Source: Ruminococcus sp. (GTDB lineage: Bacteria > Bacillota > Clostridia > Oscillospirales > Ruminococcaceae). Taken from it: DNA of 42,603 nucleotides. The translations under genes and the position numbers were made by a program. The notes beneath the pieces are model-generated. The model was not told the DNA's origin and did no database searches. It saw only the letters and a list, made by a program, of their open reading frames with translations. The DNA lies in NCBI GenBank assembly GCA_017484095.1, contig JAFUTU010000046.1:1-42603 (forward strand). The letters run 5' to 3'. Positions 14,979 to 29,173 of the stretch are shown piece by piece; within the stretch, counting starts at the first letter, position 1; every line of letters starts with the position of its first letter.

Positions 14979-15224
14979 TTGGAAACAAGAGTAGCTATAA
15001 TTGCAATAATAGTTCAGGATCCTGAATCCGCTGAGAGCGTTAACGCTTTACTGCACGAGTATAAAGATGCCATTATTGGCAGAATGGGTATACCATACAG
15101 AGCAAAAGGTATTAACATAATCAGCATTGCTGTCGATGCTACTCAGGATGATATTAATTCTCTTGCAGGAAAGATCGGCAGGCTTGAGGGTGTTTCTGCA
15201 AAGACTGTTTACTCTGCTAATTGA
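14979..15224 (+). CDS. TM1266-family regulator (iron-only hydrogenase system regulator)
   Basis: An 81-residue ACT-like / ferredoxin-fold small protein. The pattern ETRVAIIAIIVQD at the N-terminus, then VNALLHEYKDAIIGRMGIPY, then INIISIAVDATQDDINSLAGKIGRL and VSAKTVYSAN matches the TM1266 family, which is normally found beside [FeFe]-hydrogenase maturation genes (HydEFG) and is thought to regulate them. TTG at 14979 is taken as the start because AAAGGAG ends eight bases upstream; other in-frame NTG codons are too close to it. It is the first gene of the operon and probably controls it. The ligand is unknown. Confidence 0.85.
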   Translation: METRVAIIAIIVQDPESAESVNALLHEYKDAIIGRMGIPYRAKGINIISIAVDATQDDINSLAGKIGRLEGVSAKTVYSAN

Positions 15225-15295
15225 TAGACCAAAAACATATACATAATATATACGGAAAAATTGTTTTTTCTGACGCTGAAATATTTCTTGAAGCG

Positions 15296-15357
15296 AAAGT
15301 AAGATTATTGTTCCTGAACACAAGGTCGGATTCTTACTTTTTGGATCCGACTTTTTT
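15296..15357 (+). promoter_or_regulatory. Attenuator-like competing hairpins
   Basis: Two mutually exclusive stems. The terminator: GTCGGAT (15325-15331) with ATCCGAC (15345-15351) followed by six T (15352-15357). The alternative: AAAGTAAGA (15296-15304) with TCTTACTTT (15332-15340), whose 3' arm occupies the terminator loop. It lies between the regulator and hydF and could set read-through into the 13-kb maturation operon. No known riboswitch class is recognised in the rest of 15,225-15,382. Confidence 0.6.
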
Positions 15358-15382
15358 ATTCTGAAAGCAGTGGGTGATAATT

Positions 15383-16582
15383 ATGAGTCTCAATTCAACA
15401 CCGTCGTCCGAAAGGATACATATTGGTTTCTTCGGAGTTAGGAACGCAGGTAAATCAAGTCTTGTAAATGCTGTTACAAATCAGGAGCTTGCTGTCGTTT
15501 CCGATACACCCGGAACGACTACTGATCCTGTTACAAAGGCTATGGAGCTTTTACCGCTTGGACCTGTTGTGATAATAGATACTCCCGGATTTGATGATGA
15601 GGGCGCACTTGGCGAGCTGAGAGTTAAAAAGACTTCGCAGGTGCTTAACAGAGTTGATATTGCAGTTCTGGTGACGGATATCACAAAGCCTCTTTGTGAA
15701 TGTGAGAACGAGCTTATCGACCTGTTTAAGAGTAAGAATATACCTTATCTTATAGTCGGCAATAAGTACGATCTATCACCGACTGCACCTGACGGTGACC
15801 GCTTTGCAGTAAGTGCAGCACAGAAAAGCAATATACTTGAGCTGCGTGAAAAAATAGCTTCGCTTGTTGTGACTAAAGACCAGACGCACCGAATCGTCGG
15901 AGATATTATTGGTGAAAATGATCTGGCTGTACTTGTTGTGCCTATCGATAAAGCTGCGCCTAAAGGCAGACTGATATTGCCGCAGCAGATGGTCATAAGG
16001 GATATACTGGAATCAGGTGGCTGTGCTTCGGTGATTCGTGAAACTGAGCTTGCGTACACACTTAAAAACCTAGTAAGCAAGCCCAAAATAGTAATAACTG
16101 ACAGTCAGGTGTTTGCAAAGGTAAATAAAGATACTCCTGATGATATAATGCTAACGTCTTTTTCTATCCTCATGGCAAGATATAAAGGCTTTTTGGAAAC
16201 TGCGGTGAGAGGTGCTGCTGCAATATCGAAGCTTAAAGACGGTGACAGGATACTTATATCCGAAGGCTGTACACACCATAGGCAGTGCGGAGATATCGGA
16301 AGTGTCAAGCTGCCTGCGCTGCTCAGAAAAACTACAGGAAAACAGATCGAGATCGAGCTTAGCTCCGGTAAAGAATTTCCAGAGGAGCTTGACCGCTTTT
16401 CTATGGTCATACACTGCGGCGGCTGTATGCTCAATGAGAGAGAGATGGTATATCGTATGAGAACTGCTGTTGATAACGGTGTGCCGTTTACCAACTATGG
16501 TGTAGCTATTGCATATATGAACGGGATACTTGCTCGGAGTCTTGAAGTGTTCCCACAGATAAAAAGGCTCCTGGATAACTGA
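15383..16582 (+). CDS. hydF: [FeFe]-hydrogenase maturation GTPase HydF
   Basis: A 399-residue scaffold and carrier protein that receives the [2Fe] subcluster precursor of the H-cluster and delivers it to HydA. G1 loop GVRNAGKSS lies at 18-26, DTPG of the G3 motif at 66-69 and NKYD at 127-130. The C-terminal iron-sulfur site is intact: C296-T-H-H and HCGGC (Cys345, Cys348). All signatures of true HydF, rather than an Era-type GTPase, are present. ATG 15383 is preferred over a GTG nine bases earlier; the only ribosome binding site candidate is GGGTG. It is the first of the co-directional genes after the attenuator. Confidence 0.95.
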   Translation: MSLNSTPSSERIHIGFFGVRNAGKSSLVNAVTNQELAVVSDTPGTTTDPVTKAMELLPLGPVVIIDTPGFDDEGALGELRVKKTSQVLNRVDIAVLVTDITKPLCECENELIDLFKSKNIPYLIVGNKYDLSPTAPDGDRFAVSAAQKSNILELREKIASLVVTKDQTHRIVGDIIGENDLAVLVVPIDKAAPKGRLILPQQMVIRDILESGGCASVIRETELAYTLKNLVSKPKIVITDSQVFAKVNKDTPDDIMLTSFSILMARYKGFLETAVRGAAAISKLKDGDRILISEGCTHHRQCGDIGSVKLPALLRKTTGKQIEIELSSGKEFPEELDRFSMVIHCGGCMLNEREMVYRMRTAVDNGVPFTNYGVAIAYMNGILARSLEVFPQIKRLLDN

Positions 16583-16597
16583 GCGGAAGGTGTACTA

Positions 16598-17668
16598 ATG
16601 AGTGGAACAGCAAAAAAATTAATAGATGAGCTCAATATAAACAAACATCTTGACAGGGACAAATGGATAACTCTGTTAAGTGACTGGGACGACCGCGACA
16701 GAGAGTATGCTGCAAAGATCGCAAGAGAAATAAGTGAGAGAATCTATGGCAAGAATATCTATATTAGAGGAATTGTCGAGTTTTCAAATGTCTGTAAGAA
16801 TGACTGTCTCTACTGCGGCATTAGAAGATCAAACAAAAATGCACAGAGATATAGACTTACTGATGATGAGATACTTATGTGCTGTGATGAAGGTTACGAG
16901 GAAGGCTTTCGTACCTTTGTGCTGCAATGCGGTGAGGATTCGGCATATTCTGCTGAGAGAATGGCAAATATAATCAGACGAATAAAGGAAAAATATCCTG
17001 ATTGTGCTGTAACGCTGTCTCTGGGTGAAATGGAATATGATGAATATAAGCTTATGCGTGAAGCGGGTGCTGACAGATATCTGCTTAGACACGAAACTGC
17101 AAACGAAGAGCACTATAAAAAGCTTCATCCTGCTGAGATGTCATTCAGCCATAGAATGAAGTGTCTGGAGGATCTTAAAAGTCTTGGCTATCAGACAGGT
17201 GCAGGCATAATGGTGGGTTCTCCGTATCAGACTGTAGAATGTCTGGCAGACGATATGTTGTTTTTTGAACGCTTCAAGCCTGAAATGATCGGCATAGGTC
17301 CGTTTCTGCCGCATAAGAATACACCATTCTGTAATGAAGCTAAAGGCTCTTATGAGCTTACTCTGTTTCTTCTCAGCCTTTGCAGGATAATGCTTCCTAA
17401 CGTGCTGCTCCCTGCAACTACGGCGCTCGGTACTATCAGACCTGACGGAAGGGAACAGGGTGTGCTGTCAGGCGCTAATGTTATTATGCCTAATCTTTCA
17501 CCGACTGCTGTAAGGAAAAAGTATATGCTCTATGACGGAAAGATATGCACAGAGGACTCTGCTGATCAGTGTAAAATGTGCATTCACGCCAGAATGAAAC
17601 GTATAGGATATGTGGTGAAGGTTTCGAGAGGGGATTATTCTTATGATAAAGATAGCGATCTACGGTAA
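16598..17668 (+). CDS. hydE: [FeFe]-hydrogenase radical SAM maturase HydE
   Basis: A 356-residue radical SAM enzyme. The [4Fe-4S]-SAM motif Cys66-x3-Cys70-x2-Cys73 (CKNDCLYC) follows the HydE-specific GIVEFSN. The C-terminal accessory cluster motif C-x7-C-x2-C is also present (KICTEDSADQCKMC), as in Thermotoga HydE. Known HydE acts on the Fe(CO)2(CN)(cysteinate) product of HydG on the way to the H-cluster dithiomethylamine. Length and motifs fit the family well. It starts 15 bases after hydF and overlaps the next gene by 26 bases. A BioB or PylB relative is less likely given the C-terminal motif. Confidence 0.93.
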   Translation: MSGTAKKLIDELNINKHLDRDKWITLLSDWDDRDREYAAKIAREISERIYGKNIYIRGIVEFSNVCKNDCLYCGIRRSNKNAQRYRLTDDEILMCCDEGYEEGFRTFVLQCGEDSAYSAERMANIIRRIKEKYPDCAVTLSLGEMEYDEYKLMREAGADRYLLRHETANEEHYKKLHPAEMSFSHRMKCLEDLKSLGYQTGAGIMVGSPYQTVECLADDMLFFERFKPEMIGIGPFLPHKNTPFCNEAKGSYELTLFLLSLCRIMLPNVLLPATTALGTIRPDGREQGVLSGANVIMPNLSPTAVRKKYMLYDGKICTEDSADQCKMCIHARMKRIGYVVKVSRGDYSYDKDSDLR

Positions 17669-18404
17669 GGGTGGTATCGGCAAATCGACGATTTCCTGTA
17701 ATATTTCTGCTGCACTTGCCGGAAAGGGCCTTACCGTTATGCAGATAGGCTGCGATCCGAAAGCTGATTCAACCTCTCTTCTGCACGGCGGCGACAGGAT
17801 AGACACTGTGCTTGAGCTGAGCCGCAAAAAAGGAAAAACTCTTACTATTGATGATATAGTTCATGAGGGCGCTTTTGGTATAAAGTGTGTTGAAGCAGGC
17901 GGCCCTGTACCTGGGCTTGGCTGTGCCGGAAGAGGTATAATCATTGCTTTGGAAACGCTTGAAAAGCTTGGTGCTTATGAGCTTTATAAGCCTGATGTCG
18001 TTATCTACGATGTACTTGGTGACGTTGTCTGCGGCGGATTTTCTATGCCTATGAGAAAGGGCTATGCCGATAAAGTCTTTGTAGTGACGTCAGGGGAAAA
18101 GATGTCTGTTTATGCTGCTGCTAACATATGTATGGCAGTTGATAACTTCAAGGGCAGAGGATATGCATCGCTTGGCGGTATCATTCTTAACAGACGAGGT
18201 GTCGAAGGTGAAGATGAAGCTGTTAAAGTGCTTGCAGATGATTTTTCAAGCAGTATCATCGGCTGCATAGACCGTAGTGAAGATGTATCATTAGCTGAGA
18301 AAAAGGGCAAAACAGTTTCAGAAGTCTGTCCTGATTCAGTAGTGTGTGCTCAGCTTGATGGTGTTGCTGATGAGATACTAAAAGGCTTCGGAGGTGCAAC
18401 TTGA
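17643..18404 (+). CDS. NifH-like nitrogenase-type iron protein, copy 1
   Basis: A 253-residue ATPase of the NifH/BchL/CfbC family, shorter than NifH (about 290) and lacking its C-terminal tail. The P-loop GKGGIGKST (8-16), switch I DPKADST (38-44), and both [4Fe-4S] ligand cysteines, Cys94 (GLGCAGRG) and Cys130 (DVVCGGF), are intact, so a dimer bridging one [4Fe-4S] cluster and coupling ATP hydrolysis to electron transfer is expected. It should donate electrons to the D/K-like pair that follows. It overlaps HydE by 26 bases and the next gene by four, indicating tight translational coupling. Its target reaction is unknown. Confidence 0.92.
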   Translation: MIKIAIYGKGGIGKSTISCNISAALAGKGLTVMQIGCDPKADSTSLLHGGDRIDTVLELSRKKGKTLTIDDIVHEGAFGIKCVEAGGPVPGLGCAGRGIIIALETLEKLGAYELYKPDVVIYDVLGDVVCGGFSMPMRKGYADKVFVVTSGEKMSVYAAANICMAVDNFKGRGYASLGGIILNRRGVEGEDEAVKVLADDFSSSIIGCIDRSEDVSLAEKKGKTVSEVCPDSVVCAQLDGVADEILKGFGGAT

Positions 18405-19717
18405 ACCGTGCTAATGGGCTTGACAAGCCCTGCTGTGTTAAAATAGCGGACGCTGACAGAAATGAGCTTTTTGCCTCAGGTCTTGAGTACAATCCTCCTG
18501 CGCGAGGAATGTGGAACATAGTTCATTCGGGTATGCTGCTGCCGGGGGCACATGAGATATTTGCTTGCGCTCAGGGTTGTCTCAGAGGTGTTATCCTCAC
18601 TGCTGCCGAGATGCTAGAGCTTGATCGGCTAAGCTGGATATCTGTGAGTCAAAGTGATATGTTTGACGGCACGCTTGAATGTGATATCATTGACGGCGTC
18701 TGTGAGATAATTGGTAAGCTTGACAGAAGACCGCCTGTAATACTGCTTTATCTTAGCTGTATACATCTGTTTGCGGGTGTTGATTTTGAAGTGATAATCG
18801 ATGAGTTGACACAAAGGCATCCTGATATAACTTTCGTTGACTGTTATATGACTCCGACAATGAGACAGACAGTTTCTCCTGTTTCAAAGATGAGCTCCCA
18901 GCTATATGCTGCACTCAAGCCCTTGCCATTCAATAATAGGGCTGTAGGTATAGTCGGCAATGACAGAGCTACAGATGAAGATTCTGAGCTTGTAAGGATA
19001 ATAAAGAATTCAGGCTGTGAAGTTAGAGATATTACTTTATGCAAAAGTTATGAAGAGTATTTGCTGCTTGCTGAGTGTGCTCTAAATATAAGCTATATAC
19101 CGACAGGATATCTGGCTGGCGACGATCTTGAGCGCAGGCTTGGTGCAAAGCATCTGCATCTTCCTGCCAGATACAGCTATGATGATTTGATAGATAACTA
19201 TAAAGTTTTGTGCAGTGAGCTGAATATAGAGGTCCCTGACTTCTCAGCTGATATTAATTTGGCTGAAAAAGCACTTAAAGCCGCTAAAGAGGTTATTGGT
19301 GATACCCCTATAGCTATTGATTACACAGTTGTTACAAGACCGTTTGAGCTTGCATGGCTGCTGTATGATCATGGCTTTAATGTAAAGCATATAATAGCTG
19401 ACTCTGCTGCGGGAGAGGAAGACTCTTTTGATAAGCTTTGTGAAAAATGTCCTGATTTGATGATATGGTCTGCTGCTAATGTGAATATGCTGTATGAGCC
19501 TGAGCAGCACCACGAACATATGCTTGCATTGGGTCAGAAGGCAGCTTATTATTTTACAACTGATAACTTTGTCAATATCGTTGTAAACGGTGGATATTAT
19601 GGCTTTTCAGGCATAGCAAAGATAGCTGAGCTTATGATCGATGCGTATAATTTGCCTAAAGACAGGCGTGAGGTGCTCAAACTTAAAGGTATGGGCTGCG
19701 CGAGTTGTCTTGTCTGA
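18401..19717 (+). CDS. NifD-like nitrogenase component 1 subunit, copy 1
   Basis: A 438-residue protein of the nitrogenase component 1 superfamily (NifD/NifE/BchN/CfbD). It has Cys56 and Cys60 in ACAQGC and Cys120 in LYLSCIHLFAGVD, at positions expected for bridging-cluster ligands. I do not see the FeMo-cofactor Cys/His pair of NifD. The C-terminus ends in a conspicuous CASC pair (GMGCASCLV). The start is TTG 18401, overlapping the stop of the NifH-like gene by TTGA and preceded by GGAGGTG. It pairs with the K-like gene after it. It is likely a reductase subunit or cofactor scaffold for this operon's pathway. Confidence 0.85.
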   Translation: MNRANGLDKPCCVKIADADRNELFASGLEYNPPARGMWNIVHSGMLLPGAHEIFACAQGCLRGVILTAAEMLELDRLSWISVSQSDMFDGTLECDIIDGVCEIIGKLDRRPPVILLYLSCIHLFAGVDFEVIIDELTQRHPDITFVDCYMTPTMRQTVSPVSKMSSQLYAALKPLPFNNRAVGIVGNDRATDEDSELVRIIKNSGCEVRDITLCKSYEEYLLLAECALNISYIPTGYLAGDDLERRLGAKHLHLPARYSYDDLIDNYKVLCSELNIEVPDFSADINLAEKALKAAKEVIGDTPIAIDYTVVTRPFELAWLLYDHGFNVKHIIADSAAGEEDSFDKLCEKCPDLMIWSAANVNMLYEPEQHHEHMLALGQKAAYYFTTDNFVNIVVNGGYYGFSGIAKIAELMIDAYNLPKDRREVLKLKGMGCASCLV

Positions 19718-19731
19718 GGGGGTGCAGGGAT

Positions 19732-20877
19732 TTGAAAAATGTATCAAAGATAATTCCGTGCTATGCTGCTGATACCTCCGGTGTCTGTTCGGCGTTATAT
19801 GAGCTTGGCGGTCTGACAGTTGTACATGACGCTTCGGGTTGCAATTCGACCTACTCTACTCATGATGAGCCCAGATGGTATGATATGAGATCAAAGATAT
19901 ATATTTCAGCGCTTACAGAGCTTGATTCTGTAATGGGGAACGATGAGAAGATCATTTCAGATGTAGTATCTGCCGCTCATGACCAGGAGCCTGAGTTCAT
20001 AGCTTTGTGCGGATCGCCTATGCCGATGATGACAGGCTTTGATTATGACGCTGTAGCCGATGAGATCGAGCAGCGCAGCGGAGTGAAAACTATACCTCTG
20101 CATACAAATGGTATGAATTCGTATATTGACGGCGCATCAGAAGCCTTTTGTTCGATAGTGAAAGCCTATGCAGAAAAGAAAGAGAAGATCATAAACGGTG
20201 TGAATATACTCGGTTTGACGCCGCTGGATTTTCCGCTTGGTGCAGAAAAAGATATCAGGAACTGGCTTAGTTACTATAATTTTGAGTGCATTTGCACTCT
20301 TGCAATGGGTGCATCACTTGATGATGTAAGAAATATGGGAGCAGCTTCGCTTGATCTTGTCATATCGCAGTCGGGGCTTGCGGCTGCTGAGTATATGAAA
20401 GCACAGTTCGGGATACCATATGTGTGTGCTGTACCATACGGCAAGCAGTTTTCAAAGAAGCTTGCAGCACACATGGCAAATGTAATAAAAGATGAAGACA
20501 GCTTTTCGCCTTTTGTTCTGCCCTGTAACGGTTTCCCGAATGCTGATACAGTAGTTATAGGTGAGGGCGTTTCTGCAGGTTCTCTCACTGCGGCTTTGTG
20601 GGCTGATATGAAACTTGAAGCCAGACTGCTTTGTACACTGCCTTCACCTTCATTTTTCACAGCTAATAGTGGCGGTGTTATATCAGCAGAAGAGGATATA
20701 GAAGCATATCTGAAAGAGACTTCTCCGAAAACTGTAATAGCAGATCCCTTATATAAGTATATCGTTCCTCATGATACAAGGTTTATTGAACTGCCTCATT
20801 TCGCTTTTTCGGGAAGATGTTTTCAGAAGGATATGAGAAGCCTTATCAATAAGAACATAAAGGAGTATTTTAAATGA
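19732..20877 (+). CDS. NifK-like nitrogenase component 1 subunit, copy 1
   Basis: A 381-residue component 1 subunit of the NifK/NifN type. Candidate cluster ligands occur at Cys19 ([12 protein letters not shown]), Cys37 (HDASGCN, like the HGxxGC of NifK/NifE) and Cys93 (ALCGSPMP), in the canonical order of three. The C-terminus ends in an [10 protein letters not shown] segment shared with the second copy. TTG 19732 is the preferred start (AGGGGG nine bases upstream); an extension to 19705 would add a Cys-containing stretch overlapping the previous gene. It overlaps the second NifH-like gene by four bases. Confidence 0.85.
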
Positions 20878-21638
20878 TAAAAATAGCTCTTTACGGCAAA
20901 GGCGGTATAGGAAAATCGACCTGTACCTCAAATCTGTCGGCTGCTTTTTCAAAATTAGGTTTAAAAGTTATACAGATCGGCTGTGATCCGAAAGCAGATT
21001 CTACTATCAACCTTCTACATGGTGATCCGGTTACGCCCGTAATGGATTATATGAGAATACATGATGAAGAACCTGACAAGATCGAACAGATATCTAAGGT
21101 CGGTTACGGAGGAGTAGTGTGTATTGAGACAGGAGGCCCCACACCAGGGCTTGGCTGTGCCGGAAGAGGTATAATAACAACATTCAGCTTGCTTGAAGAG
21201 CTGGAGCTTTTTGATATAGTTAAGCCTGATGTTGTTCTTTATGACGTTTTGGGCGATGTTGTCTGCGGTGGCTTTGCAGCGCCGATCAGAGAAGGCTATG
21301 CGGAAAAAGTGTTGATTGTCAGCTCAGGCGAGAAGATGGCGCTCTATGCAGCAAATAACATCAACAGTGCCGTTAAGAACTTTGAGGACAGAAGCTACGC
21401 CAAGGTCAGAGGAATAATTATGAACAGGCGCAGTGTTGAAAACGAAGAAGAAAAGGTCAAAGCATTTGCTGATAAAGCAGGTCTTAAGATCGTTGCTGAT
21501 ATTCCTCGCTCAGCAGATATTATCAAGTATGAGGATATTGGTATGACCTGCGTTGAGGGTGATCCTGATTGCGAGACCTCGAAGCGTTTTATTGAACTTG
21601 CCGGACTTCTTATGAACGAGGACGAACAATATGACTGA
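20874..21638 (+). CDS. NifH-like nitrogenase-type iron protein, copy 2
   Basis: A 254-residue paralogue of the 17,643 gene, with the same motifs: P-loop GKGGIGKST (8-16), DPKADST (38-44), Cys95 and Cys131 as cluster ligands. The two share long conserved blocks ([29 protein letters not shown]) but differ clearly elsewhere, so the duplication is old and both are probably functional. It opens the second H-D-K module with an ATG overlapping the previous stop. It may serve only its own D/K partner or both. Confidence 0.92.
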
Positions 21639-22929
21639 AGCTTACTATATAACCGCATCTGAGCTGGCAAAGCGTAGCTATGATGATCTGCCTGATGAAC
21701 TAAATTCAGCAAAGCATATGATCTATAGCTCGCCTGCAACTCTTGATTTCAATTCACCGGGAGCTAAGGGCTTCGGTGTTAAGAGGGCGGGTCTCGCGAT
21801 CCCCGGGTCTGTAATGCTGCTTATTGCGCCCGGCTGCTGCGGAAGAAATACTGCATTGCTCAATGAGCTCGGCTACAGTGAAAGGTTCTTCTACTTGATG
21901 CTTGATGATACTGATATAGTTACAGGAAGATATATAAGTAAAATACCGCAGGCTTGCGCTGAACTGCTGGAAGAGCTTGAAACTGAACCATCTGTCGTGA
22001 TGCTTTGTGTGACCTGTGTTGATGCTCTTCTTGGCACTGATATGGAAAGGGTCTGTCGCGCTTGTGAAGACCTTACAGGAGTTAAGACTGCACCTGCGTA
22101 TATGTATGCACTTACAAGAGAAAAGCGTCTGCCGCCAATGGGTCTTATCAGAAAGTCGGTTTATTCTCTGCTTGAGCCTCAAAAAAGGCGCTCAAATGAG
22201 TGCAGCATAATGGGATTTTTCTCTGCTCTGGAAGATGACTGCGAATTATATGCTCTTCTTCGTTCGATAGGCATAAAAAATATACACGAACTTGGCAGAT
22301 GCAAAACATTTAATGACTATCAGATGATATCCCGATCTAATTTCAGCCTTGTACTCAACTCAGAGGCAAGGGCTGCCGCTCAGGATATGCAGTCTCGTCT
22401 GGGTATTCCGTTTATTGAGCTTACCAGAATGTTCAGGATATCTAAGATACACAATCAATATGCGCTATTAGGACAGGCGCTTGGTTCACAGCTTGATGAT
22501 ACTGAGTATATGAATAACGCTAAAAACATAGTTGACAGCTTCAGGAATAAATACCCTGGTGAAGTTTTTGCAATTGGCGAGAGCTTGAATGCGGACTGCT
22601 TTGAACTGGCGCTTGCACTGACGGAATACGGATTCAGAGTTGCCGAGATATACGGCACTGTCGGTGAAAGAAATTTTGTGTTTGTAAAAAAGCTTGCAGA
22701 GCTTTCTCCTGACACCAGGATATATTCAAATTTGTCGCCGACAATGATGAATTACGAACCATTAAAAGATGTTACTGTTGCTATTGGTGCTGACGCTATG
22801 TATTATCACAGTGATATTGCAGGCACGCCTTTTAATGAAGAAGAACAGCCGTTTGGCTATCGTGCAGTTGAGCTATTGTTTAATAAGCTTGACAAGGTGC
22901 TCAGCGAAAGTAGGGGAGGTGCAAGATGA
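21631..22929 (+). CDS. NifD-like nitrogenase component 1 subunit, copy 2
   Basis: A 432-residue component 1 subunit, paralogous in position to the 18,401 gene. It carries adjacent cysteines Cys69-Cys70 (APGCCGRN) and a second pair, Cys126 and Cys129 ([13 protein letters not shown]), where copy 1 has Cys56/Cys60 and Cys120. The overall sequence is strongly diverged from copy 1, suggesting a different cluster or substrate. It overlaps the NifH-like gene by eight bases and the K-like gene by four. Its role as catalytic subunit or NifEN-like scaffold is undecided. Confidence 0.82.
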
Positions 22930-23966
22930 AAAAACTTCTGAAACACCTTTCTCCTCTTGCTCCTGATGATTCCGGTGCCTGTTCTGTGCTTTATGAAATG
23001 GGTGCTGTAACTGTTATCTGCGATGCCGGAGGCTGTGCGGGTAATGTCTGTGGATTTGACGAGCCAAGGTGGTTTACTAAAAGATCTGCGCTGTTTTCTG
23101 CGGGACTGCGAGACATGGATGCTATACTTGGCAGAGATGAGCTTCTTGTCAAAAAACTCTCGTTGATATGTGAGCAGGTCGATGCTCGCTTCACAGCGAT
23201 AGTCGGAACGCCTGTACCTGCCGTGATAGCTACTGACATGCGTGCTATTGAAAGAATGGCTGAAAAAAGAACAGGGCTCCCTTGTATAGCATTGAATACT
23301 GACGGCACCAATCTTTATGACTATGGTGAAGAGATGGTATACAAGCGTCTTTTTGAACAGTTTGTATCTGATGAATACAGCACGGTCAAGGGGCGAGTCG
23401 GAGTGTTGGGAGCAACTCCTCTCAATACAGGAGAGCTTACTTCTGACAGGATAAAAGGAGAACTGAGATCAGAATACGGTACGGACGTCGTCTGCTTCGG
23501 TCTTGACAGCGGCATTGACGATATCATAAGAGCTTGTGAGTGTGAAAAAATAGTTGTCATCGCGCCTTCAGGTCTTGCGATTGCTAGGTTCTTGAATAAG
23601 AAATACGGTATTCCGTATGATGTCAGCGGCTGCTGCATTGATAAGAATGTGCTTGAAGCAGCAAAAGCGCTTGATAATAAAAAAGTTCTTATAATCCACC
23701 AGCAGTTTACTGCTGATTATCTCAGAGAACAGCTCAGCGGCTGTGACGTAACCTGCGCAAGCTGGTTCAAAATGGTTGCTTCATATAAGCAAGAAAATGA
23801 TGTTCATATAAAAGGCGAGGATCAGTTCATTGAGCTGGTGGAAAACGGCGACTTTGATGTTATTATTGCCGACAGCTTTTTCAAAAGAGCTCTTAATACC
23901 TTTAAAGGAGAATGGATAGATCTGCCGCATTTTGCGGTCAGCGGAAGACTGAATAAGGATATTTGA
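22926..23966 (+). CDS. NifK-like nitrogenase component 1 subunit, copy 2, altered ligand set
   Basis: A 346-residue paralogue of the 19,732 gene: SGACSVLYEMGA aligns with [18 protein letters not shown] with SGCNST, DEPRWF with DEPRWY, and DLPHFAVSGR with [10 protein letters not shown]. Cys19 and Cys37 are kept, but the third ligand Cys93 of copy 1 is Val93 here (AIVGTPVP). Extra cysteines at 32 and 42 could compensate. It is also shorter than copy 1 by about 35 residues. ATG 22926 overlaps the previous stop; hypF begins one base after its stop. Confidence 0.85.
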   Translation: MKKLLKHLSPLAPDDSGACSVLYEMGAVTVICDAGGCAGNVCGFDEPRWFTKRSALFSAGLRDMDAILGRDELLVKKLSLICEQVDARFTAIVGTPVPAVIATDMRAIERMAEKRTGLPCIALNTDGTNLYDYGEEMVYKRLFEQFVSDEYSTVKGRVGVLGATPLNTGELTSDRIKGELRSEYGTDVVCFGLDSGIDDIIRACECEKIVVIAPSGLAIARFLNKKYGIPYDVSGCCIDKNVLEAAKALDNKKVLIIHQQFTADYLREQLSGCDVTCASWFKMVASYKQENDVHIKGEDQFIELVENGDFDVIIADSFFKRALNTFKGEWIDLPHFAVSGRLNKDI

Positions 23967-23967
23967 T

Positions 23968-26274
23968 ATGACTACAGTTAATATTCATGTCTATGGAATA
24001 GTGCAGGGCGTCGGCTTCAGACCGTTTACGGCAGTTGCTGCGGCAAAGCACAACATAGTTGGTACTGTTGCAAATAAGGGCTCATACGTTGAGATAATTG
24101 CTCAGGGCGAGTTGAAAGATATTAACGTCTTTATTGATGAGGTAAAATACCGACCTCCTGAACGTGCAGTGATACTTGGAGTTGATGAGCTGCCTTATAC
24201 ACAAAATGAGTCTTTTGACAGTTTTGAGATAATAGAAAGCGAAAAAGAATACGGCGATATCTTCATATCGCCCGATATTGCGACCTGTGACAAATGTAAA
24301 AAAGAGCTTTTTGACAAAAACGACAGGAGATACCTTCACCCATTTATAAACTGTACGCAGTGTGGTCCGAGGCTTACTATCCTCGATTCTATGCCTTATG
24401 ACCGAGTGCGCACCAGTATGGGTGAGTTCCCGATGTGTGATAAGTGTTCATCGGAATATTATGACCCTGCGACAAGGCGCTATGATGCTCAGCCTGTTTG
24501 CTGCAACGACTGCGGTCCAGAGGTTTATATTCTCGGCACTGATATCAAGGGTGCAGATGCCATAACCGCTGTAAGACGAAGCATTTGCGAAGGAAAGATA
24601 GCTGCGATCAAAGGTATCGGAGGATTTCATCTTTGCTGTGATGCCAAGAATACAGAAGCTGTGGAGAGGCTTCGTAAGCTGAAAAGACGTCCGATGAAGC
24701 CTTTTGCAGTTATGATGAGAGATATAGAGACTGTCAGAAGAGAATGTTTGATCGAAGATGGACAGGAAGAATATCTTACAGGCTGGCAAAAGCCAATAAT
24801 GCTTCTTGAAAAGCGTGAAAAGCAGTTCCTTTCTGATAGAATCGCTCCCGATAATCTGACGATCGGTGTTATGCTCCCTTATGCGCCGGTTCAAATGCTT
24901 TTGTTTGACTATCCCGACGGGATACAGATCAGTGATTGTCTTGTTATGACCAGTGCTAATGCCAGAGGTGCTCCGATATGCAGATGCGACGAAGATGCAT
25001 TGACTGAGATCGCGGGCTTTTGTGATATTATACTTTCTCATAACAGAAAAATACGTATCAGAGCTGATGATACGGTTACAGACTGGCTTTATGACAAGCC
25101 GTATATGATAAGAAGATCCAGAGGATTTGCACCGCTGCCGATAATGCTGGCCTGCGATAACTCAAAACAGGCTATAGCGATCGGAGGAGAGCTGAAAAAC
25201 AGCTTCTGCGTTGCAAGAAACGGAATGCTTTATTTATCGCCGTATATCGGTGATATGGCTGATATCAGAACTGTAAAGGCTTTGAAGGAATCATCACGAA
25301 GAATGTGTGAGATGCTTGAAGCTGAGCCTGATGAAGTAGTCAGCGATAAGCACCCGATGTATAACACAGTGACATTTGCCGAAGAGTACGCAAAATCCCA
25401 CGATATACCCTTAGTACAGATACAGCATCATTACGCTCATATCCTTTCCTGTATGGCTGAAAACGGATATGACGGAAAGGTCATCGGGCTTAGCCTTGAC
25501 GGTACAGGCTACGGTGATGACGGTACTGTATGGGGCGGAGAGATACTTGTTTCCGATTATAGCGGATTTGAACGGCTTGGAAGCATCAGCTCGTTTTATC
25601 AGGTCGGCGGTGATATTTCGGCTAAAGAGGGCTGGCGTATAGCTGCTGCAATACTGAACAGTGTTTTCGGCGATAATGGCAAAGATATCTGCACAAGACT
25701 TGACATTTGTTCCGAAAAGGAATATAGTTTAATAAATATGATGTCTCAGAACAAGATCAACAGCGTTATGTCAACAAGCTGCGGAAGGCTGTTCGATGCA
25801 GTATCGGCTGTTCTTGGAATAAGACGCGCATCTACATTTGAAGGTGAAGCTTCAACAGCTCTTATGTATCATGCACAGATTTATGAGCGCAAGGGCAGCA
25901 GCTTTGTCAGTGGATACAAAGAAGAGCTTATCAGAACAGACAATGAAAATGTTACATTGGAGACAAATTCTCTTGTGAAGTATATCGCGGAGCAGAGGAT
26001 CAGTGATATAACTGCTGATATTGATATGCTTGCGTATGAGTTTCATTATGTTCTGTCAAAAATGCTGATAAGTGCTTGCGAGCATATCAGAAAGAACAGA
26101 TGTCTTGATACTGTCGCGCTGAGTGGCGGTGTGTTTCAGAATAAACTGCTTGTAAGGCTTACAAATGAGGGCTTGATCGAAAAGGGGTTTAAAGTTCTGC
26201 TGCACAGTGTTGTGCCGCCTAATGACGGAGGTATCGCTTTAGGGCAGGCAGCATATGCCGTAAAAAACATGTGA
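23968..26274 (+). CDS. hypF: Carbamoyltransferase HypF
   Basis: A 768-residue cytoplasmic enzyme that converts carbamoyl phosphate into the carbamoyl group transferred to the C-terminal cysteine of HypE, the source of CN ligands for iron. Domains in order: acylphosphatase (VYGIVQGVGFRPF at about 4-16), two CxxC-x18-CxxC zinc fingers (about 108-185), a YrdC-like carbamoyl-AMP domain (about 200-390), and a Kae1-like domain with QHHYAH near 488 and LSGGVFQN near 716. Length and all modules are complete. It directly follows the nitrogenase-like genes, linking CN synthesis with them. Confidence 0.97.
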   Translation: MTTVNIHVYGIVQGVGFRPFTAVAAAKHNIVGTVANKGSYVEIIAQGELKDINVFIDEVKYRPPERAVILGVDELPYTQNESFDSFEIIESEKEYGDIFISPDIATCDKCKKELFDKNDRRYLHPFINCTQCGPRLTILDSMPYDRVRTSMGEFPMCDKCSSEYYDPATRRYDAQPVCCNDCGPEVYILGTDIKGADAITAVRRSICEGKIAAIKGIGGFHLCCDAKNTEAVERLRKLKRRPMKPFAVMMRDIETVRRECLIEDGQEEYLTGWQKPIMLLEKREKQFLSDRIAPDNLTIGVMLPYAPVQMLLFDYPDGIQISDCLVMTSANARGAPICRCDEDALTEIAGFCDIILSHNRKIRIRADDTVTDWLYDKPYMIRRSRGFAPLPIMLACDNSKQAIAIGGELKNSFCVARNGMLYLSPYIGDMADIRTVKALKESSRRMCEMLEAEPDEVVSDKHPMYNTVTFAEEYAKSHDIPLVQIQHHYAHILSCMAENGYDGKVIGLSLDGTGYGDDGTVWGGEILVSDYSGFERLGSISSFYQVGGDISAKEGWRIAAAILNSVFGDNGKDICTRLDICSEKEYSLINMMSQNKINSVMSTSCGRLFDAVSAVLGIRRASTFEGEASTALMYHAQIYERKGSSFVSGYKEELIRTDNENVTLETNSLVKYIAEQRISDITADIDMLAYEFHYVLSKMLISACEHIRKNRCLDTVALSGGVFQNKLLVRLTNEGLIEKGFKVLLHSVVPPNDGGIALGQAAYAVKNM

Positions 26275-26315
26275 ATATCTGACGATATTGAATAAATTTT
26301 GAAAGGAAGATATAT

Positions 26316-26525
26316 ATGTGTGTTGGATTATCTGCAAGAGTTGTAAGTATTAAGGATCAGACTGCTGTGATAGAGGCAGGCGGCGCTCAGCGTGCTGTAA
26401 GTGCAGGTGTGCTTGATGAGCTTGAACCAGGCGATTATGTTATGGTGCACGCAGGCGTTGCAATTGCTAAGATCACAGAGAGCGATGAAGAGCAGACCGA
26501 TGAGGTAATGGAGAGCTTATTATGA
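26316..26525 (+). CDS. hypC: Hydrogenase maturation chaperone HypC
   Basis: A 69-residue HypC/HybG-family protein. The essential Cys2 (MCVGL), which ligates the Fe(CN)2CO moiety, is present, followed by the family core ARVV and a conserved GDYVMVHAGVAIAKI segment in the C-terminal half. It works in complex with HypD. The ribosome binding site AAAGGAAG lies before the ATG, and its last four bases overlap hypD. Confidence 0.95.
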   Translation: MCVGLSARVVSIKDQTAVIEAGGAQRAVSAGVLDELEPGDYVMVHAGVAIAKITESDEEQTDEVMESLL

Positions 26526-27574
26526 ACGAACAGATCAAAGCTGCCAGAGAGATCATAACAGGCTATCAGGGAAGACCTCTCAGAATTATGGAGGTTTGCG
26601 GAACTCATACGCATGAGATATTCAGGCTGGGCATCAGAAAGCTTCTGCCCGAAAGTATTGATGTCATTTCCGGCCCTGGATGTCCTGTATGTGTCACAGC
26701 TGTCGGCTTTATTGATGAAGCTTGCTGGCTGGCACTTGAAAAGGGCTGCATTATCTGCACATTCGGTGATCTTATAAAGGTACCCGGTACAGAAATGAGC
26801 CTTGCACAGGCAAGGGCTAAAGGTGCACAAGTAAGGCCCGTGTATTCGCCGCTTGATGCTGTAGAGCTGGCAAAAGAAAACCCTGACAAGCAGGTCGTGT
26901 TCCTGGCGGTCGGCTTTGAAACTACGACTCCGTCTGCCTGTCTTGCTGCGAAGCAGGCAAAGGCAGAGGGGCTCAATAACTTCTCTTTGCTGACAGCAAA
27001 CAAAACCATGCCTAATGCTTATAATGCTTTGGTCGGAAGTGCTGATGCTTTCATATATCCGGGTCACGTTAATGCAATAACAGGAAACGGCGCTTGTATC
27101 AGGCTTTGCGAAGAAAAAGGTGTTAGCGGTGTCGTAGCCGGTTTTACCGCAAATGAGCTCCTGATCGCGCTGGCTGTAGCTATAAAGCTGCTTCAGAAAG
27201 GCGAGCCTTTCTTTCGCAATTGCTATCCGCGTGTCGTAAAAGACGAAGGGAACCTTGCTGCGATAAAGCTTATGGACGAAGTTATGGAGTCTTGTGACAG
27301 TGAATGGCGCGGACTGGGAATGATACCGATGTCAGGTATGAAGCTCAGAGAAGAGTATGCAGAGTATGACTCTCGGATAAAATATTCGATGCCTGAGATA
27401 AAGGGCAGACCTAATCCTGCTTGCCGCTGTGGAGATGTTTTGCAGGGTAAGTGCAAACCGTCTGACTGCAAAGTGTTCGGTAAGGTATGTACACCGCTTC
27501 AACCTATAGGTGCCTGCATGGTTTCTGATGAAGGCGCGTGCTCGGCATACTATCAGTATTCTGGAATTATTTAA
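26522..27574 (+). CDS. hypD: Hydrogenase maturation protein HypD
   Basis: A 350-residue iron-sulfur scaffold on which Fe(CN)2CO is assembled with HypC. Signatures: MEVCGTHTH (about 23-31, containing the Fe-binding Cys), GPGCPVCVT (about 51-59), FETTTPS (about 135-141), and the C-terminal [4Fe-4S] region with CRCGD, C-x4-C and a late GACMV segment (about 294-340). Complete. It overlaps hypC, and hypE follows after 16 bases. Confidence 0.97.
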   Translation: MNEQIKAAREIITGYQGRPLRIMEVCGTHTHEIFRLGIRKLLPESIDVISGPGCPVCVTAVGFIDEACWLALEKGCIICTFGDLIKVPGTEMSLAQARAKGAQVRPVYSPLDAVELAKENPDKQVVFLAVGFETTTPSACLAAKQAKAEGLNNFSLLTANKTMPNAYNALVGSADAFIYPGHVNAITGNGACIRLCEEKGVSGVVAGFTANELLIALAVAIKLLQKGEPFFRNCYPRVVKDEGNLAAIKLMDEVMESCDSEWRGLGMIPMSGMKLREEYAEYDSRIKYSMPEIKGRPNPACRCGDVLQGKCKPSDCKVFGKVCTPLQPIGACMVSDEGACSAYYQYSGII

Positions 27575-27590
27575 TACGGAGGATAGAATT

Positions 27591-28598
27591 ATGAGTGAAA
27601 ATAAGGTTACTTTAGCACATGGTGCCGGAGGAAAACAGACCAGTGAGCTTATCAGCAGAGTGTTCAAGGCACATTTTTCAAACCCCTTATTTACTGCTGA
27701 TGATGCAGCTGTGCTGCCACAGATAGATTCTAAGCTTGCATTTACTACTGATGGCTTTATCGTATCCCCTTGGAAGTTCAACGGCGGTAATATCGGTAAG
27801 CTCTCGATCTGCGGAACGGTTAACGATCTTTCATGTATGGGTGCCAAGCCGATGTACTTGACATGTGGATTTGTTATAGAAGAGGGATTTGATCTTGATG
27901 ATCTTGAAGAGATCGCCGTTGCTATGGAGAAAACAGCTGCGGAAGCAGGAGTGAAGATAGTTGCAGGTGATACCAAGGTAACAGGAAAAGGTCAGGTCGA
28001 TGGCATTTTCATAACAACAACAGGTATCGGTGCCGTTCAGGAGGGTGCAAATACATCAGGTAAGTTTTCTAAACCCGGAGATGCAATAATAGTTACAGGT
28101 GATGTCGGAAGGCACGGTTGTACAATACTTCTTGCTAGAGATCAGTTCGGTATAGAATCAGATATTGACAGCGACTGCGCACCTCTCTGGGATACTGTAA
28201 GCTCTGTACTGGAGGTTTCTAAGGACGTTCACGTTATTAGAGATGCCACTAGAGGCGGCGTTGGTACAGTTTTGTATGAAATAGCTGAACAGAGCGATGT
28301 CGGGATAGTTCTTGATCAGACTGCTATACCTGTTGATGACAGAGTTAAAGGCGTTTGCGGTATGCTCGGTCTTGAGCCGCTTTATCTCGCCTGCGAGGGA
28401 AGACTGGTTATCTTTGCACCTGCTGAAGATGCTGATAAGATCGTAGAAAAGCTTCGCGAAGGTAAATATTCAAAAAACGCTGCCATTATAGGCAGCGTTG
28501 CTAAAGAAAATAAAGGTAAGGTTATTGTTGAGACCGAGATCGGTACACAAACTATACTTCCTCAGCCAAAGGGAGAACTTCTTCCCAGAATTTGTTAA
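27591..28598 (+). CDS. hypE: Carbamoyl dehydratase HypE
   Basis: A 335-residue PurM-like ATPase that dehydrates the HypF-added carbamoyl group on its terminal cysteine to thiocyanate and passes CN to the HypCD iron. The N-terminal LAHGAGGKQTSELI, DDAAVLP and the conserved C-terminal tail PRIC, with the essential terminal Cys, are all present. ATG 27591 is chosen because GGAGGA lies ten bases upstream; a longer frame back to 27510 would overlap hypD. It is the last gene of the operon. Confidence 0.97.
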   Translation: MSENKVTLAHGAGGKQTSELISRVFKAHFSNPLFTADDAAVLPQIDSKLAFTTDGFIVSPWKFNGGNIGKLSICGTVNDLSCMGAKPMYLTCGFVIEEGFDLDDLEEIAVAMEKTAAEAGVKIVAGDTKVTGKGQVDGIFITTTGIGAVQEGANTSGKFSKPGDAIIVTGDVGRHGCTILLARDQFGIESDIDSDCAPLWDTVSSVLEVSKDVHVIRDATRGGVGTVLYEIAEQSDVGIVLDQTAIPVDDRVKGVCGMLGLEPLYLACEGRLVIFAPAEDADKIVEKLREGKYSKNAAIIGSVAKENKGKVIVETEIGTQTILPQPKGELLPRIC

Positions 28599-28657: not shown

Positions 28658-29173
28658 CTACTTTGTGTTTTTTATACTTTTAAACTGCTTAAATCTTTCT
28701 AACGAGAGACCGATTACTACATATACTATTGCCGATGATAAAGTTTGAACCGTATTTGCAGCTGCATCTGCAAAGCCTGCTCCCAACGAATGATAGATTA
28801 CAAGTCCGCTGTATAGACCGTATCCTCCAACGCAAACGATCAGAGACGGTATTATTGCGATAAGATTATGTGCGCATATTATGTTCTTGTTCTTTGATGT
28901 GAAGAACATGGCAGTCACAGCCTTAATTATAAGAGTACCCGGCACCCATATCAGATAGCCTGACAGCGCATCTGCAAGTGCTCCGCCAACGGCACCAACG
29001 AATATCGCATATGGTGTCGGAAGTACTGAGCCTGCAAGAAATATAACCGCATCACCAATGTGTACATATCCTTTTATTGTTGGTACGTGTAAAAAGGCTG
29101 TAAGAACGTATGTCAGCGCAGTCAGTATTCCTGTTAGTGCTATAAGCTTTGTTTTTTCACGATTTTCATTCAT
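28658..29173 (-). CDS. ECF transporter S component
   Basis: A 171-residue membrane protein with about five to six helices. The layout (basic N-terminus, ALTYVLTAFL helix, VHIGDAVIFLAGSVLPTPYA, a VGAVGGALADALSGY motif, and a C-terminal helix pair) matches substrate-binding S components of energy-coupling-factor vitamin transporters, similar to the TIGR04002/DUF1393 group. The substrate is probably a vitamin or related compound and cannot be named. The ribosome binding site AAGGAGC lies ten bases before the ATG on the minus strand. No EcfA or EcfT gene is nearby, as usual for group II systems. The 29,174-29,360 gap shows nothing else recognisable. Confidence 0.85.
   Translation of the reverse strand: MNENREKTKLIALTGILTALTYVLTAFLHVPTIKGYVHIGDAVIFLAGSVLPTPYAIFVGAVGGALADALSGYLIWVPGTLIIKAVTAMFFTSKNKNIICAHNLIAIIPSLIVCVGGYGLYSGLVIYHSLGAGFADAAANTVQTLSSAIVYVVIGLSLERFKQFKSIKNTK

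Follow-up and report, generated by a model that had tools for sequence, protein, structure and literature searches.

Which cofactor is assembled by a gene cluster that combines two maturases of the [FeFe]-hydrogenase H-cluster with two nitrogenase-like modules and HypCDEF? This question is raised by a locus of Ruminococcus sp. on contig JAFUTU010000046.1, the 42,603 nucleotides of which form the window. Thirteen genes, all on the + strand, occupy positions 14979–28598 in the order TM1266-HydF-HydE-NifH1-D1-K1-NifH2-D2-K2-HypF-C-D-E. The genome (G000) to which the window belongs, as contig C47, measures 2.31 Mb and is 99.4% complete. Our prediction is that the cluster builds the [2Fe] part of the ordinary H-cluster without HydG, whose place as supplier of iron, CO and cyanide is likely taken by NifHDK1, NifHDK2 and HypCDEF. 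The probability of this reading is estimated at about 0.6. HydG is the normal source of the CO and CN ligands of the H-cluster (PMC9431212), and all five of these ligands are held to derive from tyrosine (PMC3105041).

HydG, HydE and the probable target hydrogenase in genomes carrying the cluster

Genomes with a close match to NifD1 (carriers) were collected from three sources. An evenly drawn sample of 295 genomes of the order contains 15 genomes with a NifD1 match, 11 of them close (E < 1e-80); the weak matches of G150 (4e-44), G184 (1e-42), G084 (6e-7) and G267 (5e-6) were left out of the close set. A species-wide scan gave 80 loci, out of which 50 whole genomes were tested. In a sample of 391 genomes of the class there are 21 NifD1 matches. 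Four of these had already been counted, 12 are further close matches (E < 1e-137) and five are divergent (G415, G488, G518, G482 and G603) and were also left out. The resulting 73 carriers may include near-duplicates.

HydG does not reach its curated cut-off in any of the 73 carriers (0/11 in the order sample, 0/50 in the species-wide scan and 0/12 in the class sample). The species-wide genomes without HydG include Ruminococcus albus AR67, KH2T6 and 8 as well as R. bicirculans. HydF, on the other hand, is above its cut-off in 71 of the 73 carriers. When the whole genome G000 is compared with the HydG model, the sole match has an E-value of 5.7e-19, a level that is reached by HydE itself. In the order sample, HydG is above cut-off in 118 of 295 genomes and HydF in 136. 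These 136 genomes divide into 117 with and 19 without HydG, and all 11 close carriers fall within the 19. HydG is present in 117 of the 125 HydF-bearing non-carriers (Fisher p = 1.6e-11, not corrected for kinship), and a close NifD1 is found in none of the 118 HydG-bearing genomes. In the class sample, HydG was detected in 39 of 63 non-carriers tested and in four of the five divergent genomes (all but G482). Among the excluded rows of the order sample it is present in G184 and G084 and absent from G150 and G267.

Two other causes of the missing HydG were considered. The first is a HydG hidden elsewhere in the genome: the HydG profile finds proteins of up to 222 bits in some carriers, which are presumably ThiH-like, and none above 312 bits; G000 has no such match. 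The second, an assembly gap, is unlikely for 73 genomes that include the single-contig G462 and G330 with R. bicirculans chromosome I.

HydE has changed little. The nearest PDB chains to the HydE of the window are HydE structures (best E-value 2.2e-93). An alignment of 18 HydG-linked HydE sequences with 52 from form A of the locus (the form with NifHDK2; form B has an ABC importer instead) contains 111 columns with the same residue at ≥90% in both sets, and four columns that are well conserved in the HydG-linked set are changed in form A. The HydE proteins of two form-A loci (L165 and L166) branch within the HydG-linked clade with a support of 0.98. As HydE is nearly unchanged, it most likely keeps its usual substrate, to judge from these alignments, and the new genes must then supply that substrate.

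A possible target is encoded outside the window. G000 contains a HydA of 594 residues on contig C56 (L279:7763-9544) with the motifs TSCCPGW, VIPCTAKKFE and EVMACPGGC. A HydA-type PF02906 domain was found in 24 of 24 carriers tested, in G148 as a short fragment only. The motifs TSC[CS]P and M-x-C-P-x-G-C are present in 22 of these carriers; the HydA sequences of the other two, G039 and G148, could not be read. Two of 100 close NifD1 loci surveyed, from distant groups, have a HydA gene with H-cluster motifs immediately upstream of the cluster (L086, a Victivallales contig, and L276 from another family of Clostridia). Weak HydA-like matches (49–66 bits) in seven further loci were left out of this count. 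The second H-cluster motif reads VIPC in the HydA of G000 and of L086 (1591-3372) and MPC in six HydAs of HydG-bearing genomes.

For the window genome, a role of HypCDEF in serving a [NiFe]-hydrogenase was ruled out, as no large subunit (PF00374) was found in G000. None was found in 47 of 52 form-A genomes tested either. The PF00374 matches in seven of 67 genomes are all short (profile positions 1–70), within frames of 358–403 residues (form A: G321 and G335–G338; form B: G218 and G292). Where no [NiFe]-hydrogenase is present, HypCDEF are a sign of Fe-CN/CO chemistry.

Taken together, the carriers lack HydG, encode a HydA-type protein and a near-canonical HydE, and have HydA adjacent to the cluster in two of 100 loci. 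Thus, the product is most likely an ordinary H-cluster. The original prediction had proposed a dedicated Hyd-Nif-Hyp pathway that builds a novel cyanide- and carbonyl-containing cofactor or performs a new reduction that depends on one. The dedicated pathway gains support from the conservation of the block described below, whereas the H-cluster is the likelier product and the data can be explained without a novel cofactor.

Organization of the locus and its two forms

The 13 same-strand genes and the families named for them in the original prediction are all present, and the Hyd, TM1266 and Hyp proteins exceed their curated cut-offs. The gene of the TM1266-family regulator (14979–15224, TTG start assumed; PF21699) reaches 115.5 bits with TIGR03959 (cut-off 60.8). 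It is followed by a gap of 155 bases that contains a putative terminator- or attenuator-like hairpin on the same strand (15322–15354) with a 12-pair stem and a U-run. The hairpin is part of the minimum-energy fold (z = −2.33 over the 161-nt stretch folded). Since it sets TM1266 apart, the other twelve genes may be controlled separately. The scaffold GTPase HydF (15383–16582; alternative GTG start at 15374) scores 550 bits with TIGR03918 (cut-off 325.55) and the radical SAM maturase HydE (16598–17668) 552.8 bits with TIGR03956 (cut-off 254.6). From HydF to HypE the intergenic distances are +15, −26, −4, −13, −4, −8, −4, +1, +41, −4 and +16 bases; all junctions from HydE to HypF overlap or are one base apart.

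Module 1 comprises the Fe-protein-like ATPase NifH1 (17643–18404; PF00142 (Fer4_NifH), 285 bits), NifD1 (18401–19717) and NifK1 (19705–20877). Module 2 comprises NifH2 (20874–21638), likewise an Fe-protein-like ATPase (PF00142, 288 bits), NifD2 (21631–22929) and NifK2 (22926–23966). A much stronger NifH match (433 bits to PF00142) is encoded elsewhere in G000 (C40:35778-36587, L001). The four D/K proteins match PF00148 (Oxidored_nitro) with E-values of 1e-11 to 2e-30, the latter for NifK1. NifH1 and NifH2 stay below the equivalog cut-offs of NifH (299.9 and 298.6 bits; cut-off 394.35), CfbC (303.5 and 291.6 bits; cut-off 402), BchL (175 and 204 bits; cut-off 345) and BchX. No NifD or NifK equivalog model is exceeded by the D/K proteins; they match NifE, BchB and related models far below cut-off (NifK1 reaches 54 bits with BchB, cut-off 490), and NifD1 matches none of them.

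In a profile search of the PDB, NifE ranks first for three of the proteins (NifD1, NifK1 and NifK2) and second for NifD2 (E-values 1e-9 to 1e-22), and the fold matches to NifE or NifN chains have an identity of about 12–16%. AlphaFold models of NifD1 (pLDDT 88.3) and NifD2 (pLDDT 83.6) both have the fold of nitrogenase component 1, and no nearest nitrogenase branch emerged from their structure comparison, in which the top rows are tied. Among the 120 of 2456 NifD2 homologues listed, the names are 'oxidoreductase' or 'nitrogenase component 1'. A grouping of the D/K proteins with a characterized enzyme would have spoken against the original prediction; by profile and fold similarity, only remote matches to such enzymes were obtained.

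The P-loop is conserved in both NifH proteins, together with the two cluster cysteines, C94 and C130 in NifH1 (88 sequences) and C95 and C131 in NifH2 (70 sequences). C28, C46 and C102 of NifK1 are found in 99, 92 and 87% of 83 sequences, respectively. NifD2 conserves C70, C126, C129 and C142 (67 sequences) and NifK2 conserves C37 and C42 (65 sequences). Read by eye, NifD1 and NifD2 seem to lack a Cys at the presumed position of the FeMo-cofactor ligand.

The C-terminus of NifD1 forms a KGxxCxxC tail or a close variant of it, with C433 and C436 each present in 99% of 91 sequences of both forms. In ten carriers of the class sample the first Cys is found in 10/10, and the second is shifted or lost in some. 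This tail is missing in the NifD relatives that lie beside ABC genes in the HydG-bearing genomes G415, G488, G518, G603 and G184, and also in those of G482 and G150. Of the five genomes of the class sample with such tail-less relatives, four have kept HydG. A sister NifHDK set with a FecCD importer, which has neither a nearby HydE nor the Cys tail, occurs in HydG-bearing genomes (L271, L272 and L273) and may represent the ancestor of module 1.

The Hyp genes complete the cluster. The carbamoyltransferase HypF (23968–26274) scores 741.7 bits with TIGR00143 (cut-off 466.1), the chaperone HypC (26316–26525) 58.6 bits with TIGR00074 (cut-off 48), the scaffold HypD (26522–27574) 416 bits with TIGR00075 (cut-off 192.8) and HypE (27591–28598) 427 bits with TIGR02124 (cut-off 251.6). 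C2 and H45 of HypC (53 sequences) and C26, C54 and C57 of HypD (52 sequences) are conserved. HypE ends in PRIC, and the terminal Cys is present in 95% of 42 sequences. Neither hypA nor hypB is found in the operon, to which the search for them was confined. Just downstream, an S component of an ECF transporter of the unassigned TIGR04002 family is encoded on the opposite strand (28658–29173).

The survey of 100 close NifD1 loci shows that the neighborhood is no one-off, as the original prediction had required of a dedicated pathway. The order of the 13 genes is identical in 18 loci, and the run H1-D1-K1-H2-D2-K2 is present in 61. TM1266, HydE or HydF lies within 93 of the loci. In form A (78 loci) the second module is present, and NifK2 and HypF are at most 3.5 kb apart in all 68 loci where this could be tested. 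In form B (10 loci: L096, L163, L164, L167–L171, L265 and L266) an ABC importer takes the place of NifHDK2. No locus contains both NifHDK2 and the importer; the remaining 12 are short, truncated or dispersed. Two loci have methyltransferase-like frames, recognized by eye, within the cluster, each at a different place (L036:16515-18564 and L059:13671-14961).

The usual order in form B is TM1266, FecCD permease, ATPase, HydE, NifHDK1 and periplasmic binding protein, with HydF in some loci. The importer ATPase of L169 has a C-terminal TM1266-like domain (E-value 1.9e-19), a link between the importer and the hydrogenase system; no such domain was found in the importer ATPase of L163. HypD is present in 21 of 21 form-A genomes tested and was not found in seven of nine form-B genomes tested. 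The other two, G218 and G292, each have HypD and the short PF00374 match on one contig. The constant core thus appears to be NifHDK1, HydE and HydF, which would be supplied either by NifHDK2-HypFCDE or by the importer.

Members of Ruminococcus, Lachnospiraceae and Lentisphaeria are among the carriers. Close carriers belong to the families f1, f14, f18 and f24 of the order and to f27, f36, f65, f67 and f73 elsewhere in the class. HydG-bearing genomes also occur in f1, f14, f18, f24, f27, f36 and f65. Because the same families hold both, the swap between HydG and the cluster probably happened several times.

Predicted supply route and competing explanations

Nitrogenase Fe proteins are able to reduce CO2 to CO. 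In the maturation of [NiFe]-hydrogenases, cyanide is made from carbamoyl phosphate by HypF and HypE, and the iron is held by HypC-HypD (PMC6886295, PMC12134894). The anoxic source of CO for this system is described as unresolved in PMC12134894. Reduction of CO2 is said to include a step at −530 mV, which the HypD cluster (−260 mV), being too positive, could drive only with ATP coupling (PMC6886295, PMC12134894). The position of NifHDK2 next to hypF in every testable locus would suit it well to deliver ATP-driven electrons for such a reduction.

The following route can be proposed. Starting from carbamoyl phosphate, HypF and HypE would produce cyanide and transfer it to the iron of HypC-HypD, as in [NiFe] maturation. 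NifH2 with NifD2K2 would then provide ATP-driven electrons of low potential, and CO would be formed, perhaps from CO2, at or for the HypCD iron. NifH1 and NifD1K1, which are common to both forms, would reductively turn this unit into the substrate of HydE, a complex of the Fe(CO)2(CN) type, and the KGxxCxxC tail of NifD1 may hold or pass on iron. HydE, HydF and HydA would proceed as usual. In form B an imported iron compound may feed NifHDK1, the ABC importer standing for NifHDK2 and HypFCDE. This detailed version, with CO2 reduced to CO by NifHDK2 on HypCD, the synthon finished for HydE by NifHDK1, and form-B bacteria importing an iron compound from their neighbors much like a vitamin, is tentative and rather doubtful as it stands.

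HydE and HydF above equivalog cut-offs, an adjoining TM1266 and, elsewhere in the genome, a HydA that has the H-cluster motifs are shared with HydEFG maturation, but the defining HydG is absent, and HypCDEF and two nitrogenase-like modules are in the operon. The cluster is therefore not a HydEFG system, and is judged to work like H-cluster maturation with a different supply route. With [NiFe] maturation it shares HypC, D, E and F above cut-off and their conserved Cys and His residues. It differs from that system in the adjoining NifHDK2, the lack of hypA and hypB in the operon and the lack of a [NiFe] large subunit in the genome; it is the missing target that sets it apart. NifE is the best PDB profile match for three of the four D/K proteins, so that an assembly role rather than N2 fixation, as in the scaffold pair NifEN, would fit by analogy, although the D/K proteins are very remote and far below the NifE cut-off. 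For DPOR (BchLNB), CfbCD (coenzyme F430) and methylthio-alkane reductase no equivalog cut-off is reached by the proteins of the cluster, and the operon contains no tetrapyrrole or methylthio genes.

The HydG-lacking case found in the open-access literature searched concerns acetogenic Clostridium (PMC9431212). HydE and HydF were found there in several species and HydG was not found by motif, which resembles the situation described here. In contrast to it, HydG-like candidates that deviate from the usual motifs are mentioned by the authors, who name no replacement pathway. No description of the pathway proposed here was found in the same literature.

Several observations weigh against a HydG-independent route of this kind. 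The product of HypCD is Fe(CN)2CO, whereas the HydG-derived synthon is Fe(CO)2CN (PMC9431212), a mismatch for which the route as proposed offers no explanation. HydF made with HydE alone, without HydG, gives about 1% activation according to the same source. Form B has no NifHDK2 and mostly no HypD; as HypD is missing from seven of nine form-B genomes, Hyp is not a general source of the ligands. Two of the 73 carriers, G303 and G316, have no HydF above cut-off. The genomes G482 and G150, with tail-less NifD relatives, lack HydG but also HydF. A HydA gene alone is weak proof of an H-cluster, because HydA is common without HydF: PF02906 is found in 280 of 295 order genomes and HydF above cut-off in only 136, and the four HydAs from HydF-less genomes that were checked (L108, L109, L111 and L118) keep the H-cluster motifs. 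Many HydAs of the order seem to have no maturase.

Additionally, eight HydF-positive genomes have neither HydG nor a close NifD1 (G033, G051, G052, G104, G122, G244, G267 and G271), so HydG can be lost without gain of the cluster. Of these, G033, G052 and G244 are only 60–76% complete, and G051 is in 390 contigs. G104 has HydF, HydE and TM1266. In G122, the TM1266-HydE-HydG block is missing at a locus (L277) syntenic with that of its congener G050 (L278:4594-7228), and HydF and HydA are kept. In G267 and G271, HydF has as neighbors an NMT1-type transport gene and a HydE-like radical SAM protein (148–173 bits, cut-off 254.6). The latter two loci (G271, L155:449-3730; G267, L156:2593-7262) possibly represent a third HydG-free arrangement.

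Another explanation gives the Nif-like modules a role of their own, for example in using an imported iron chelate, or some other metabolite, reductively; HydE and HydF would then achieve a weak maturation of HydA from stray CO and cyanide. The distant NifHDK sets that lie beside FecCD importers without HydE in HydG-bearing genomes (L271–L273) agree with such a role, as does the activation of about 1% (PMC9431212). Separate roles do not account for the sharing of a locus with TM1266, HydE or HydF in 93 of 100 cases, the absence of HydG from every carrier genome tested, or the TM1266 domain on the importer ATPase of L169. Furthermore, 1% activation would hardly be enough for R. albus and similar fermenters that form hydrogen. 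This explanation is unlikely.

Quite unlikely is a new metallocofactor or reductase unrelated to hydrogenase, in which HydE, HydF and HypCDEF would build a cyano-carbonyl iron cofactor for a D/K pair that performs a new reduction. It would suit the two full H-D-K sets, the conservation of the pathway as a block and the distance of both D proteins from any solved enzyme, but it leaves unexplained why HydG is absent from 73 of 73 carriers, why HydE is near-canonical and why HydA adjoins the cluster in L086 and L276. Very unlikely is a replacement of HydG by HypCDEF (form A) or the importer (form B) alone, with modules that only provide HydE or HydF with electrons or reduced iron. In its favor, NifD1 and NifD2 seem to lack the FeMo-cofactor ligand Cys, which makes a bound cofactor doubtful. 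Against it, the HydE of HydG-bearing genomes manages without module 1, and this module, unlike Hyp, is constant in the HydG-free carriers.

If HydG-independent supply by the cluster is correct, the H-cluster, an organometallic cofactor, can be made from precursors other than tyrosine, and the nitrogenase superfamily gains a role in organometallic assembly. NifHDK2 would be a candidate for an ATP-driven, CO-forming reductase beside HypCD, and CO2 reduction by it would account for the CO of the Hyp system under anoxic conditions. In R. albus 7, ferredoxin and NADH are reoxidized with two [FeFe]-hydrogenases (PMC6776011); the strains tested here are AR67, KH2T6 and 8. The prediction bears on the relatives of R. 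albus, which are model hydrogen producers of the rumen.

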